Positions 1,614 to 6,499 of a stretch of DNA of 64,000 nt are shown here, piece after piece. The stretch is from Chloroflexota bacterium (lineage in GTDB: Bacteria; Chloroflexota; Dormibacteria; Dormibacterales; Dormibacteraceae). Numbering within the stretch: the first letter of the stretch is position 1; the number at the start of each line of letters is the position of its first letter. The stretch lies in assembly GCA_005882115.1 (NCBI GenBank), contig VBEG01000024.1:124001-188000 (forward strand), in the 5' to 3' direction. The notes beneath the pieces are model-generated. The model had not been told where the DNA came from, did not search any database, and saw only the letters and a list, made by a program, of their open reading frames with translations. The translations under genes and the position numbers were made by a program.

Positions 1614-3236
1614 TTAGTGGCCCCGGAAAGCCTCTTCGAGCCATTCGGCGAACACTCCCGGCGCCACCTTGGCGTCCAGGACCAGGCCGGGTCGGTGCTT
1701 GCGTTCGGCCCATTTTCTGACCCCTGCGAGATCGGCCGGCCGGCGCACGGTGATCCCCTCCAGGCCGAGGGCCCGCCCTATGGCGGCGAAGTCGGTGTCG
1801 GGGAAGCGGACGATGTCGAGGGGATGCCCCGCGGGGGCGAAGTGGTGCACCTCCGCGCCGTAGGCCGCGTCGTTGTAGATCAGCACCAGCATGTCGAGGC
1901 CCAGGCGCGCGGCCGTCTCCAGCTCGGGCAGCGCCATCAGCGCGCCGCCGTCACCGAGGGCTGCAACGGTCATTCGGTCGGGGCGGGCGACGGCGGCACC
2001 GATGGCGCCGGCCAGGCCCAACCCGACGGACATGAAGGCCTGGGCGAAGACGAAGGCATCTGGTCCGGGAACCCGCAGGTACATGGCCGGATAGCCCATG
2101 AAGTGCCCTGAGTCCACGGCCAGCGTCCGCTGCTCCGGGAGGATGGTGTCGAGCGCGATCGACAGCGTCCGGGGATCGATGTGCTCGTCGTCGCCCCTGT
2201 CCGCGTACGTTTCGTCGCGCCAGCGGTGAGTCCGGATGCGCTCCGCCAGCTCCGTGCTCCGCCAGCCCTTCCGGGCAAGCGACCGAGCGGCCATTTCGGA
2301 CACGAGCGCCGATGCAGTCTCCGATGCATCGCCCAGCACTCCCAGGTCGACCTTTCGATGGACTCCGATCGCCCGGGGCTCTAGATCTACCTGGATGACC
2401 ACTGCCTGTGGCCCGATGAGCTTGCCGTGGGCGGTGGTCCACGCGTTCAAGGAGGCCCCGAAGGCGAGCACCAGGTCAGCCTGGGCGATCAGCTCCGACG
2501 CCAGCGGCGAGGCGAAGCCTCCCGAGATGCCGAGGTTCCATTGCGAGCGGGAGAAGAGCCCATTGGCCACCGCCGAGGTCGCCAGCAGTGCACCCACGGC
2601 GTCACCCACCCGCTCGAGCGGTTCGCCAGCCCCCGCCAGCACCGCGCCGCGTCCGGCGAGGATCAGCGGGCGCTCGGCGCCGGCCAGGCGGTCCGCCACC
2701 TCGGCGACCGCCGAGGCCGCCGGCCGCGGCGGTGGCAAAGGAGCCGCCGAACGCGGGCTCGGAGCGCTGTCCGGCTGCTCGACTGCCTGGACGTCGAGCG
2801 GCATCATCAGCACGACTGGCCGCCGCTCCGTTTGCGCCCGATGCGCGGCCCGGACCACATCGGCGACCGCCGTGGCCGGTCCGTAGATCCGCTCCGGGAT
2901 TGCCCCTACGGAGGCCACCACCGAGTCCTGGTCCAGCCGGAAATTGGAATTGATCGCCGCAGCCGCGGTGTCGCCGGCCAGTACCAGCAGGGGAGTGCGG
3001 CTCTTGGCTGCTTCTGTGAGGCCAGTGATGGTGTTGGTCAATCCCGGGCCCTGGTGGACACTACAAACACCGAGCCGACCGCTTACCCGCGCGTACGCGT
3101 CGGCCATCGCGACCGCGCCGCCCTCGTGTCGGGACGCAATGAACGCCGCCCCCGCGGCCACCAGGGAGTTGGTGACCACGAAGTTGCCGCTCCCGACCAG
3201 ACCGAAGACATCGCGTACGCCAAGGCCCGCGAGCAC
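1614..3236 (-). CDS. Thiamine diphosphate-dependent enzyme (acetolactate synthase/benzoylformate decarboxylase-like)
   Basis: ThDP enzyme of the acetolactate synthase/2-oxoacid decarboxylase superfamily, about 540 aa, near the usual 530-560. The N-terminal Pyr domain carries the activating Glu in SRHEGGAVAMADAYAR and VHQGPGLTNT. A central domain follows, and the C-terminal PP domain has the Mg/ThDP motif GDGGALM...IYND. The GTG at 3236 cuts into the first family helix. An in-frame CTG at 3266 has GGGAGG 7 nt upstream and restores LPTVAEAVGAVLAGLG, so the real start may be that CTG. It is the last gene of the CoA ligase-dioxygenase operon, where decarboxylation of an arylglyoxylate is a plausible job. 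Acetolactate synthase-like or other carboligase activity cannot be excluded. Confidence 0.85.
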   Translation of the reverse strand: MLAGLGVRDVFGLVGSGNFVVTNSLVAAGAAFIASRHEGGAVAMADAYARVSGRLGVCSVHQGPGLTNTITGLTEAAKSRTPLLVLAGDTAAAAINSNFRLDQDSVVASVGAIPERIYGPATAVADVVRAAHRAQTERRPVVLMMPLDVQAVEQPDSAPSPRSAAPLPPPRPAASAVAEVADRLAGAERPLILAGRGAVLAGAGEPLERVGDAVGALLATSAVANGLFSRSQWNLGISGGFASPLASELIAQADLVLAFGASLNAWTTAHGKLIGPQAVVIQVDLEPRAIGVHRKVDLGVLGDASETASALVSEMAARSLARKGWRSTELAERIRTHRWRDETYADRGDDEHIDPRTLSIALDTILPEQRTLAVDSGHFMGYPAMYLRVPGPDAFVFAQAFMSVGLGLAGAIGAAVARPDRMTVAALGDGGALMALPELETAARLGLDMLVLIYNDAAYGAEVHHFAPAGHPLDIVRFPDTDFAAIGRALGLEGITVRRPADLAGVRKWAERKHRPGLVLDAKVAPGVFAEWLEEAFRGH

Positions 3237-3303
3237 CGCGCCGACGGCCTCGGCTACCGTCGGCAGCGGGGGGCCTCCCGATGAGTTTGGACGCGGACTC
3301 GGC

Positions 3304-4455
3304 TCACGCCAGGCTGCGCCGCTTGGCGTCCCAGTTCCTCTCCAGGTTGTCGATCAATCCCGGGCTGTACAGGCACCGGGCCTGCTCGATCGCATACGTG
3401 GCGAGGTAGCGGCGAAACACATCAAGTGGCTCGTGCGCGGCGCGCAACGCGCGCCGGTTGGCGACCAGGCTGGTGGGGCCCGCGGCCGTCAGCTCACGAG
3501 CCAGCTCCAAGACCTCAGTCTCGACCCGGTCGGAACCCACCACACGATCGGCCAGGAGCCTTCCGGAGGTCGAGTCGGCCTGGAACTCCAGGTTCATGAA
3601 GATCGCCTGTTGGGCCAGGCGCTCGCCCACGAATCGGGGCAGGCGTAGGTTGGCGCAGCCGGGGATGATGCCCTCCTTCCGCGCCGGCAGGTTGAAGAAG
3701 GAGCCGCGTTCGGCCACCACCGCGTCCATCACGAGGAGCCACTGGCAGGCCCCGCCGATGGCCCAGGCGTCGACGGCCGCAAGGAAAGGCTTCTCGGTCC
3801 GGCCCTCCTCGAGACCGTCATCCCGCACCCTCTCTGGTGACAGACCGCGAAGCATCTTGCTGACACACCCGAGCTCACGCTCGAGCATGAACTCGACCAG
3901 CGAGATCTGGCCCTGGTAGAGCTGAGTCAGGTTGATGCCGGAGCCGAATATGCGTCGGCCGCTGTGCTTCGGATGAGTCATGGGGGCCCCGCGGAGCACT
4001 CCCACCTCGATCCTCGGATCGATCAGAACCAGGTCCACGGCGGTCTCCAGGGCCGCCGTCGAAGCGTCGTCCTCCGCGTTGAGCGAAGCGAAGTTCTGGA
4101 GGGTGATCCAGCCGACGTTCTCGCGTCGCTCGACCGCCACCGTCCCGAGCTCAACGCGACCCGCGACCTCCAGCTCATGGAGACCAGCCTGCGCCTCACG
4201 GCGGGGACGGCCCATGGCGTGGATCAAATGGTGCCCGGTCGTCGGATCGGCCAGAACCTGGGCGAAGAACTCGCCCTGGGCGACCTCCAGGCCCCGCTTC
4301 TCCTTTTGCGGGTGAGTTCGCTCTTCTTCGATCTCGGCTCTGCTGGGCACGAGGCCGGGAAACCTCTCGGCCACGTCGTACACGAGCTCGGCGCACCGGA
4401 GCTCGCGCCGACCGCCATCGGTGACCTCATCGAACGCGGCGACAGGATCGATCAA
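3304..4455 (-). CDS. Crotonase-superfamily protein resembling DpgC (arylacetyl-CoA dioxygenase)
   Basis: 383-aa crotonase-fold protein. It matches what I know of DpgC, the cofactor- and metal-free dioxygenase that converts 3,5-dihydroxyphenylacetyl-CoA to the arylglyoxylate in glycopeptide-antibiotic pathways. The shared landmarks are a long N-terminal helical region, MTHPKHSGRRIFGSGINL, QISLVEFMLERELG, KPFLAAVDAWAIGGACQ and KEGIIPGCANLRL. The C-terminus keeps VANRRAL and YAIEQARCLYS. Ordinary enoyl-CoA hydratases are about 260 aa and lack these segments. Start 4455 lies 6 nt after the ligase stop, and the ThDP gene follows. No glycopeptide genes are nearby, so a catabolic or other small-molecule role is inferred. 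Confidence 0.8.
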   Translation of the reverse strand: MIDPVAAFDEVTDGGRRELRCAELVYDVAERFPGLVPSRAEIEEERTHPQKEKRGLEVAQGEFFAQVLADPTTGHHLIHAMGRPRREAQAGLHELEVAGRVELGTVAVERRENVGWITLQNFASLNAEDDASTAALETAVDLVLIDPRIEVGVLRGAPMTHPKHSGRRIFGSGINLTQLYQGQISLVEFMLERELGCVSKMLRGLSPERVRDDGLEEGRTEKPFLAAVDAWAIGGACQWLLVMDAVVAERGSFFNLPARKEGIIPGCANLRLPRFVGERLAQQAIFMNLEFQADSTSGRLLADRVVGSDRVETEVLELARELTAAGPTSLVANRRALRAAHEPLDVFRRYLATYAIEQARCLYSPGLIDNLERNWDAKRRSLA

Positions 4456-4461
4456 GAACCC

Positions 4462-5970
4462 CTAGGCTCCCGCCACCCGCGCCTCGACGCCTCGCCAGTG
4501 GGGCTCGCGCAGCTCACGCTTCAGGACCTTGCCGGCTCCAGATTTCGGCAACGGCTCTTCGCGCAGCTCGATCGTCTTTGGGATCTTGTAGCCCGCGATC
4601 AAGGAGCGGCAGTGCGCCATCAGCTCCGCGGGCTCGACCGCGCCGCGGGGTACGACCACCGCGTAAACGGCTTCTCCCCAGCGGGCGTCGGGGACACCGA
4701 AGACCGCCGCCTCGCGTACGGCCGGGTGGCGGTAGAGGGCCTCCTCCACCTCGGTGCTGTACACGTTCTCCCCGCCGGTCACGATCATGTCCTTGGCCCG
4801 GTCCACCAGGTAGACGAACCCGTCACCATCCTGGTAACCGAGGTCACCGGTGTGGTACCAACCTTCCACCAGTGCCGCCGCGGTCTCGACTGGCTTGTTC
4901 CAGTAGCCGGCCATGACGTTGGGGCCGCGGACGACAACTTCGCCAATCGAATCCGGCGTCTGCCAGACGCCGTCGAGGCCGCGGATGCCTACCTCCACTC
5001 CGACCGCCGGCCGACCGCAGGATCGCGCCTGGGGCACGTCGAGGATCTGCTCCTCGTGCGGGAGGAGCGTCGCGATGGGCGCCGTCTCGGTGGCGCCGTA
5101 GATGTGGAGCATCTCCGCCGCCGGGAAGGCGGCGTGGGCTCGGCGAAGCGTCTCCGTCGCGACCGGCGCGCCTCCGTGGCTCAGGTATCTAAGCGACGAT
5201 ACGTCGCGCGGCCTGGCCAGCTGCTCGTCACTCAGCGCGGCCAGCATCGTCGGCACGACCAGCGTGGAGGTGATGCCGTGCTGCTCGATCAGAGCGAGCG
5301 CACGCCCGGCGTCGAAGGCAGGCAGGATCACGTGCTCGCCCGCGTTCCAGACAGTCGACAGCACGGCGATCGATCCAGCCGCATGGAAGAGCGGGGCGAC
5401 GACCAGCCAGCGCGTTTCGGAGGTGAAGGGCCAGCACATGCCGAAATGCTGGGCGTTGGCGAGGAGGTTGCGGTGCGTGAGCATCACGCCTTTGGCTGCT
5501 CCCGTGGTGCCACCGGTGTAGAAAAGCCCCGCGACCGTGTCTTCGGGAAGGTCGTCCGGAAAATCGGCCGGCGGGCCCGCGAGCAGCGCCTCATAGCCAT
5601 CGCCCAGATCGAAGATGTGCTCGACCGTGCCTTCCAGGCCCTGATCCCCGACGCCAGTGAACAGGACCCTGGCGCCCGAGTCCTCGAGCGCATACCTCAG
5701 CTCGGCGACCGCGTGACGGGGGTTGAGAGGCACGAGGTTGAAGCCGGCGCCTGGAACGGCCTGATACAGCTCGAGATAACGGTGGCAGTTTCCGGCGATC
5801 ACCGCGACCCGGTCTCCCGGCGCAAGCCCCAGCTCCGAAAGTGCACCGACCAGGCGCCTGCACCGGTCCCACGTCTGCGCGTATGTCAGCTCGACGTCTC
5901 CACATACGACCGCGGTCCGGGTCAGTCCAACCTGTCTCGCCCGCCGCATGGGGGTGATCACAGTTGCCAT
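4462..5970 (-). CDS. AMP-forming acyl-CoA synthetase/ligase
   Basis: 503-aa ANL-superfamily ligase that activates a carboxylic acid as acyl-AMP and then acyl-CoA. Core motif YTGGTTGAAKGVMLTHRN, the hinge region GYWNKP...HTGDLG...DRAKDMIVTGGENVYS and the C-terminal catalytic Lys in KSGAGKVLKREL are all present. I chose ATG 5970 (MATVITPMRRARQ) because GGAG sits 9 nt upstream. A longer in-frame extension to 6300 is Arg/Pro-rich and unlike the family. It is first in the operon with the DpgC-like and ThDP genes, so an aryl or arylacetic acid substrate is likely but not provable from sequence. Confidence 0.87.
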   Translation of the reverse strand: MATVITPMRRARQVGLTRTAVVCGDVELTYAQTWDRCRRLVGALSELGLAPGDRVAVIAGNCHRYLELYQAVPGAGFNLVPLNPRHAVAELRYALEDSGARVLFTGVGDQGLEGTVEHIFDLGDGYEALLAGPPADFPDDLPEDTVAGLFYTGGTTGAAKGVMLTHRNLLANAQHFGMCWPFTSETRWLVVAPLFHAAGSIAVLSTVWNAGEHVILPAFDAGRALALIEQHGITSTLVVPTMLAALSDEQLARPRDVSSLRYLSHGGAPVATETLRRAHAAFPAAEMLHIYGATETAPIATLLPHEEQILDVPQARSCGRPAVGVEVGIRGLDGVWQTPDSIGEVVVRGPNVMAGYWNKPVETAAALVEGWYHTGDLGYQDGDGFVYLVDRAKDMIVTGGENVYSTEVEEALYRHPAVREAAVFGVPDARWGEAVYAVVVPRGAVEPAELMAHCRSLIAGYKIPKTIELREEPLPKSGAGKVLKRELREPHWRGVEARVAGA

Positions 5971-6424: not shown

Positions 6425-6499
6425 TGGCTGGGGAGGAAGGATTCGAACCTTCAACCTTCTGATCCAGAGTCAGCTGCGCTACCGTTGCGCCACTCCCCA
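6425..6499 (-). tRNA. tRNA-Gln (anticodon CTG), CCA encoded
   Basis: Acceptor TGGGGAG pairs with CTCCCCA, followed by discriminator G and encoded CCA. D arm GCGCAACGGTAGCGC, anticodon loop CTCTGGA (U33, anticodon CUG) and T arm GAAGG-TTCGAAT-CCTTC are regular. A TAAAAT box about 32 nt upstream (near 6531-6536) and a GAGCGCTC palindrome just before the 5' end fit a promoter. Its 3' end is duplicated at 1423-1453, marking it as an integration site. Confidence 0.95.

Follow-up and report, generated by a model that had tools for sequence, protein, structure and literature searches.

A three-gene Chloroflexota operon predicted to shorten the side chain of an aromatic acetic acid with a DpgC-family, oxygen-dependent enzyme

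Cofactor-free dioxygenases are rare. DpgC, known from antibiotic biosynthesis, converts an arylacetyl-coenzyme A (arylacetyl-CoA) and O2 to an arylglyoxylate and free CoA (CoASH). The anaerobic phenylacetyl-CoA:acceptor oxidoreductase route also passes from phenylacetyl-CoA through phenylglyoxylate, on to benzoyl-CoA, with a molybdenum/iron-sulfur enzyme and without O2. In the aerobic Paa pathway, a PaaK-type ligase first activates the acid with CoA, and a diiron enzyme then epoxidizes the ring with O2. Here we describe an operon in the window, the whole stretch of 64,000 nucleotides that was analyzed (C33:124001-188000) in a Chloroflexota draft genome of 3.36 Mb, about 96.5% complete. The operon encodes an AMP-forming CoA ligase, a DpgC-family protein and a thiamine diphosphate (ThDP)-dependent enzyme. 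The route predicted from it would follow the same phenylglyoxylate logic as the anaerobic pathway with O2 and a crotonase-fold protein instead, and, unlike the Paa pathway, it would oxidize the side chain without a metal.

Arylglyoxylates also occur in other described pathways. In the PglA-E phenylglycine pathway of Streptomyces pristinaespiralis, the alpha carbon of phenylacetyl-CoA is oxidized and ends as phenylglyoxylate; unlike the reaction expected here, PglA gives benzoylformyl-CoA, followed by the thioesterase PglD and the aminotransferase PglE (PMC7089894). The likeness drawn here is between the reactions. Benzoylformate decarboxylase of the mandelate pathway (1bfd) is a ThDP enzyme acting on an arylglyoxylate, the substrate class predicted here for the ThDP enzyme of the window. 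Isatin hydrolase, as outlined for indole-3-acetate degradation in PMC6117287 and in PMC4274814 citing Jensen et al., yields isatinate (PMC6117287), which is 2-aminophenylglyoxylate and is named alpha-aminophenyl glyoxylic acid in PMC4274814. In Arthrobacter, conversion of indole-3-acetate to indole-3-glyoxylate and then indole-3-aldehyde has been reported (PMC4274814), and such carbon chemistry therefore occurs in bacteria.

The three genes lie on the minus strand in the order ligase, DpgC-family gene and ThDP gene, with spacings of 6 and 37 bp. A sequence-only reading of this DNA had proposed such a tightly spaced set, and all three open reading frames (ORFs) were found as it described them. 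The ligase gene (4462..5970) starts with ATG at 5970, preceded by GGAG, and ends with TAG at 4464-4462. The DpgC-family gene (3304..4455) starts with TTG at 4455, 6 bp past the ligase stop codon, and ends with TGA at 3306-3304. The ThDP gene (1614..3266) seems to start with CTG at 3264-3266, 37 bp past the dioxygenase stop, because the homologue in the related locus L038 begins earlier and GGGAGG, a candidate ribosome-binding site (3274..3279, minus strand), lies seven bases upstream. The earliest ATG, GTG or TTG in this frame, a GTG at 3236, would remove the conserved start of the domain.

We propose, with a probability of about 0.62, that the operon serves O2-dependent side-chain shortening of an aromatic acetic acid, from arylacetate through arylacetyl-CoA and arylglyoxylate to an aryl aldehyde. 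In this scheme, in which the substrate, the reactions and the sequence of steps are inferred, the ligase would form arylacetyl-CoA from arylacetate, ATP and CoA. The DpgC-like enzyme, using neither metal nor cofactor, would form and hold the arylacetyl-CoA enolate in its oxyanion hole for direct reaction with O2, and the enolate-O2 intermediate would collapse to arylglyoxylate and CoASH. The ThDP enzyme would then split the arylglyoxylate into aryl aldehyde and CO2, and the aldehyde would be oxidized elsewhere in the cell. Family and context support the ligase step; for the dioxygenase step, support comes from family, residues and fold, and for the ThDP step from context and partly conserved residues. 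The enzyme families themselves are known; on our best reading, the catabolic use of DpgC chemistry is the new part within the open-access literature searched. In the papers of that literature, we found neither a catabolic, non-biosynthetic DpgC route with these partners nor the three-gene route, in agreement with the earlier suggestion that it is undescribed.

The identity of the middle gene product was examined by sequence, fold and phylogeny. Its best PDB matches by phmmer were all DpgC (2np9/5kag, E 1e-88, residues 6-373), and ordinary crotonases scored at most 52 bits. The DpgC equivalog model NF042432 gave 377.7 bits, below its cut-off of 530, and the next NCBIfam model gave 74. The AlphaFold model (pLDDT, predicted local distance difference test, 92.5) had DpgC 4ylh as its best PDB match in Foldseek at a template modeling (TM) score of 0.91, followed by crotonases at about 0.55; the match spans the whole length in both sequence and fold, including the N-terminal helical domain of DpgC. 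In the alignment, DpgC residues E189, H222, I235, R254, G296, Q299, A319 and I324 are all retained, and E189, R254, G295, G296, Q299 and A319 are invariant in 67 family rows (51 relatives and 16 glycopeptide-type). We take these to be the active-site positions from DpgC structural work; R254 and A319 are also named in the titles of PDB mutant entries (R254K, A319C and V425T). The two catalytic glutamates of hydratases (Glu144/Glu164 of the rat enzyme) are replaced by Gln238 and Ala258, which stand in the same columns as Q299 and A319 of DpgC. In the tree, all DpgC-family rows were split from the crotonases of the window's own genome with 100% support in the Shimodaira-Hasegawa-like approximate likelihood ratio test (SH-aLRT), and the 51-row clade of the window protein formed a group of its own with 100% support, separate from the glycopeptide-type rows. 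The genome contains 13 further crotonase-family matches (G000 contigs C30, C42, C119, C123 and others). Identity as an ordinary enoyl-CoA hydratase was rejected by the PDB scores, the fold match, the tree and the missing glutamates. Thus, the pocket, tree and structure comparisons all bore out the DpgC-type assignment of the sequence-only reading.

Compared with DpgC of vancomycin-type biosynthesis (2np9, 4ylh; NF042432), the window protein shares the fold, the N-terminal domain, the E189/H222/R254/Q299/A319/I324 set and the lack of hydratase glutamates, and the same arylacetyl-CoA and O2 chemistry is expected of it. In contrast, it is only 44-45% identical, scores below the equivalog cut-off and forms a separate clade. 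It belongs to the DpgC family broadly and not to the (3,5-dihydroxyphenyl)acetyl-CoA equivalog, and cofactor-free, O2-dependent action on an arylacetyl-CoA is predicted for it; we annotate the gene as a predicted arylacetyl-CoA 1,2-dioxygenase. The genetic setting also differs: the partner is a CoA ligase, and the substrate is therefore expected to be an acid and not a polyketide product. No dpgA/B/D or aminotransferase genes were recognized beside the DpgC-like gene, and no nonribosomal peptide synthetase (NRPS) or type III polyketide synthase was recognized in a reading by eye of the ORFs in the overlapping locus L009 and in the window's first 12 kb.

The ligase, a predicted arylacetate:CoA ligase, carries the AMP-binding (1.5e-79) and AMP-binding_C domains of Pfam, and its closest solved relative is a feruloyl-CoA synthetase (8wev, E 2e-94). 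It scored under the cut-off of every NCBIfam model among the matches listed, did not match TIGR02155 for PaaK phenylacetate-CoA ligase, and is of the FadD/feruloyl-CoA synthetase type. The CoA activation step would be shared with the Paa pathway, which has a PaaK-type ligase.

The third protein has the TPP_enzyme N, M and C domains of Pfam and reached no curated ThDP family, its best score among the NCBIfam matches listed being 236.8 bits (cut-off 620). The nearest curated families, xsc and acetolactate synthase, are carboligases or acetyltransferases and scored far below cut-off. The benzoylformate decarboxylase model NF005485 (cut-off 493) was not among the best 25 models for this protein and gave 136 bits on its relative in locus L138. 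Comparison with benzoylformate decarboxylase, with the sequence checked against 1bfd, showed equivalents of the catalytic Glu47, Ser26 and His70. An AlphaFold model from three sequences had low confidence (pLDDT 68) and was not used. The simplest function is that of a predicted arylglyoxylate decarboxylase. The earlier placement in the benzoylformate decarboxylase/acetolactate synthase group holds in part: the protein is decarboxylase-like with these three residues kept, but it is only distantly similar to benzoylformate decarboxylase, lies outside all curated families and has relatives in an isatinate-type context.

This context is the isatin hydrolase gene, identified by match to 5nmp (E 4e-81), which lies directly beside, and upstream of, the ThDP gene in 14 of the 23 ThDP loci; a DpgC gene is nearby in three. 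The window enzyme is 56-65% identical to the ThDP proteins whose genes adjoin isatin hydrolase. Since the product isatinate is an arylglyoxylate, the substrate class expected of the ThDP enzyme is the product class of DpgC, and either supplier would give it an arylglyoxylate. By context, the enzyme looks like an isatinate-type decarboxylase rather than benzoylformate decarboxylase proper. At E 1e-30, isatin hydrolase had no match in the window's genome (G000, a draft), and Rhizobiales genome G410 gave no match either; in both, the ThDP gene stands beside DpgC and ligase genes instead, so that, unlike in the isatin hydrolase route, the arylglyoxylate would come from DpgC. The isatin hydrolase and ThDP pair, conserved in Chloroflexota and Pseudonocardiaceae (L138:8066-10493, L137, L139-L141, L144-L146, L149, L152, L153, L131 and L135), makes the ThDP protein a candidate isatinate decarboxylase, on which no paper was found in the open-access literature searched. 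Beside the pair in L137 (1-1986) is a salicylyl-CoA 5-hydroxylase/oxidoreductase-like fusion (999.7 bits, cut-off 1078). Its architecture is like that of 2-aminobenzoyl-CoA monooxygenase/reductase, and this would agree with anthranilate downstream.

We next consider the distribution of the dioxygenase and its partners. In a scan, bacterial and archaeal genomes yielded 366 relatives of the DpgC-like protein, the best 80 of which are mainly from Chloroflexota, Actinomycetota and Pseudomonadota. Neighborhoods were counted at 79 loci. In 34 of them, a CoA ligase is located no more than 3.5 kb from the DpgC gene, mostly on the same strand and less than 700 bp away; 18 are window-like and 17 PaaK-type, with both kinds in one locus. 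Enzymes that decarboxylate 2-oxoacids are found beside the dioxygenase in several loci and are of three designs. Pseudonocardia has an indolepyruvate ferredoxin oxidoreductase (IOR)-family protein that exceeds its model's cut-off (1226.8 bits versus 816). Locus L059 of Pseudorhodoplanes has the E1 alpha, E1 beta and E2 subunits of a 2-oxoacid dehydrogenase, with a similar arrangement in L067, and the third design is the window-type ThDP enzyme. All three fit an arylglyoxylate product. The conserved unit is ligase plus DpgC, with a variable 2-oxoacid enzyme. The genome-neighborhood search proposed in the sequence-only reading thus recovered the ligase and DpgC pair in several phyla and the complete set in three places only: the window, L038 and L058.

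In L038, a copper amine oxidase, an amino acid permease, isatin hydrolase, the ThDP enzyme, DpgC and a PaaK-type ligase (TIGR02155, 455 bits, under the cut-off of 646) are encoded together, with the ThDP gene directly between isatin hydrolase and DpgC; this gene set points to an arylethylamine as the outer source of the arylacetate. L058, from a Rhizobiales metagenome-assembled genome, looks like a complete catabolic locus: a branched-chain-type ATP-binding cassette (ABC) uptake set, a TetR regulator, DpgC, an FlK-like thioesterase and the ligase are followed by a convergent ThDP gene and a tripartite ATP-independent periplasmic (TRAP) transporter binding protein. L094 was considered as a fourth three-gene locus and rejected, as its ThDP protein is acetolactate-synthase-like, with 27% identity and without the Ser/His pair.

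Several observations weigh against the proposed pathway. In over half of the DpgC relatives, the surrounding 3.5 kb holds no ligase, and a ligase was found in 32 of 126 near stretches versus 12 of 92 stretches 5.5-9 kb away, an excess of only about twofold; the very short distances between ligase and DpgC genes are a stronger sign than this excess. Besides the rarity of the exact gene set, the nearest relative, L037 (ligase 89% identical and in the same position, DpgC 85%), has no ThDP gene beside the pair; in that genome, the ThDP gene is elsewhere, adjoining isatin hydrolase. The equivalent of benzoylformate decarboxylase His281 is absent from the ThDP enzyme, with Thr in the window and Ser in L038, in a region of uncertain alignment. 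No aldehyde dehydrogenase, transporter or regulator was recognized beside the window's operon, and we know of no activity for any non-biosynthetic member of its DpgC clade. Among 400 Chloroflexota genomes, the DpgC-like gene occurs in 11 (none above the equivalog cut-off), the ThDP type in 15 and both in 6 (hypergeometric, 4e-7). Within the window's family, five of 23 genomes have both, from 7 and 10 singly (p 0.09), and much of the co-occurrence may therefore reflect shared ancestry.

The high frequency of isatin hydrolase beside the ThDP gene, together with L037, suggests another explanation: the ThDP gene could be an isatinate decarboxylase relic of an indole/isatin route, adjacent by chance, while the arylglyoxylate from ligase and DpgC is used by another enzyme. 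We consider this unlikely, although it is the strongest of the alternatives. The window's genome and G410 keep the ThDP gene beside ligase and DpgC with no isatin hydrolase match, the ThDP gene of L038 directly joins the two systems, and the ThDP type occurs in only 2 of the 397 genomes from G410's order, which makes chance adjacency unlikely in that order.

It is improbable that the ThDP enzyme instead joins the carbanion formed from arylglyoxylate with an aldehyde or 2-oxoacid to make an acyloin, in a biosynthetic and not a catabolic route. The carboligase nature of the closest curated families and the NRPS and DegT-type aminotransferase genes beside wider-clade DpgC genes in Streptomyces would fit such coupling; however, every curated ThDP model scored far below cut-off, the relatives' context is isatin hydrolase and once the catabolic gene of L137, and no biosynthetic genes were recognized around the window's operon. 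Equally doubtful is that the DpgC-like protein is another crotonase-fold CoA enzyme (a hydrolase, decarboxylase or hydratase) and no oxygenase. The crotonase superfamily is catalytically diverse, the protein scores below the equivalog cut-off, and DpgC Val425, the position mutated in PDB 5kah, is Leu in the window protein. Against this, the protein lacks both hydratase glutamates, retains the compared DpgC positions and the N-terminal helical domain, and matches only DpgC in fold over its full length.

For the proposed side-chain shortening, we favor indole-3-acetate or a hydroxyphenylacetate as substrate rather than phenylacetate, since the same genome has PaaA/PaaC-type genes of the usual phenylacetyl-CoA route. 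This gene pair (C123:98180-100267) indicates that aromatic catabolism is present elsewhere in the genome. Around the operon, a tRNA-Gln lies upstream of the ligase at 6425-6499. Downstream of the ThDP gene, past a 190-bp gap, are an acyltransferase (656-1420) and, at about -103 to 655 of the window (L009:11897-12655), a two-domain VOC protein weakly similar to catechol 2,3-dioxygenases and FosA. Both were rejected as operon members on account of the gap and because, in the loci where they were searched for, neither adjoined a related DpgC gene.

Other relatives have further neighbors. In Pseudonocardia (L047:5216-11140, L061 and L063), a Crp-type regulator, an IOR-family fusion and the DpgC-like gene are consecutive, and in L047 molybdenum hydroxylase subunits and a CoA ligase are also nearby. 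In Xanthobacter tagetidis (L114:3536-15722), a degrader of thiophene carboxylates and acetates, an ABC uptake set and an IOR-cluster protein with a TPP domain accompany the DpgC-like gene. Rhizobial loci (L052:11165-11569, L055, L057 and L058) have a small hotdog protein of the FlK (fluoroacetyl-CoA thioesterase) type between DpgC and ligase. In Streptomyces (L065:2445-13761, L070, L069 and L071), a wider-clade DpgC-like gene occurs with a DegT-type aminotransferase, an adenylating enzyme and NRPS genes, which suggests that phenylglycine is supplied there by a DpgC-type enzyme; the species of L065, S. griseoviridis, is an etamycin producer.

Altogether, we give an even chance to a broader view, in which an undescribed form of aerobic arylacetate catabolism, by CoA activation, cofactor-free dioxygenation of the DpgC type to an arylglyoxylate and decarboxylation through interchangeable 2-oxoacid enzymes, is widespread in Chloroflexota, Actinomycetota and Pseudomonadota. 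If this is true, the vancomycin-type DpgC would be a single biosynthetic representative of an enzyme family that lies mostly outside antibiotic production. A large clade linked with aryl-CoA ligases and 2-oxoacid decarboxylases would place direct enolate-O2 chemistry in ordinary soil metabolism. It would also provide a second aerobic, metal-free way of degrading arylacetates, possibly including the plant hormone indole-3-acetate, and it offers a testable function, isatinate/arylglyoxylate decarboxylase, for an unassigned ThDP family.

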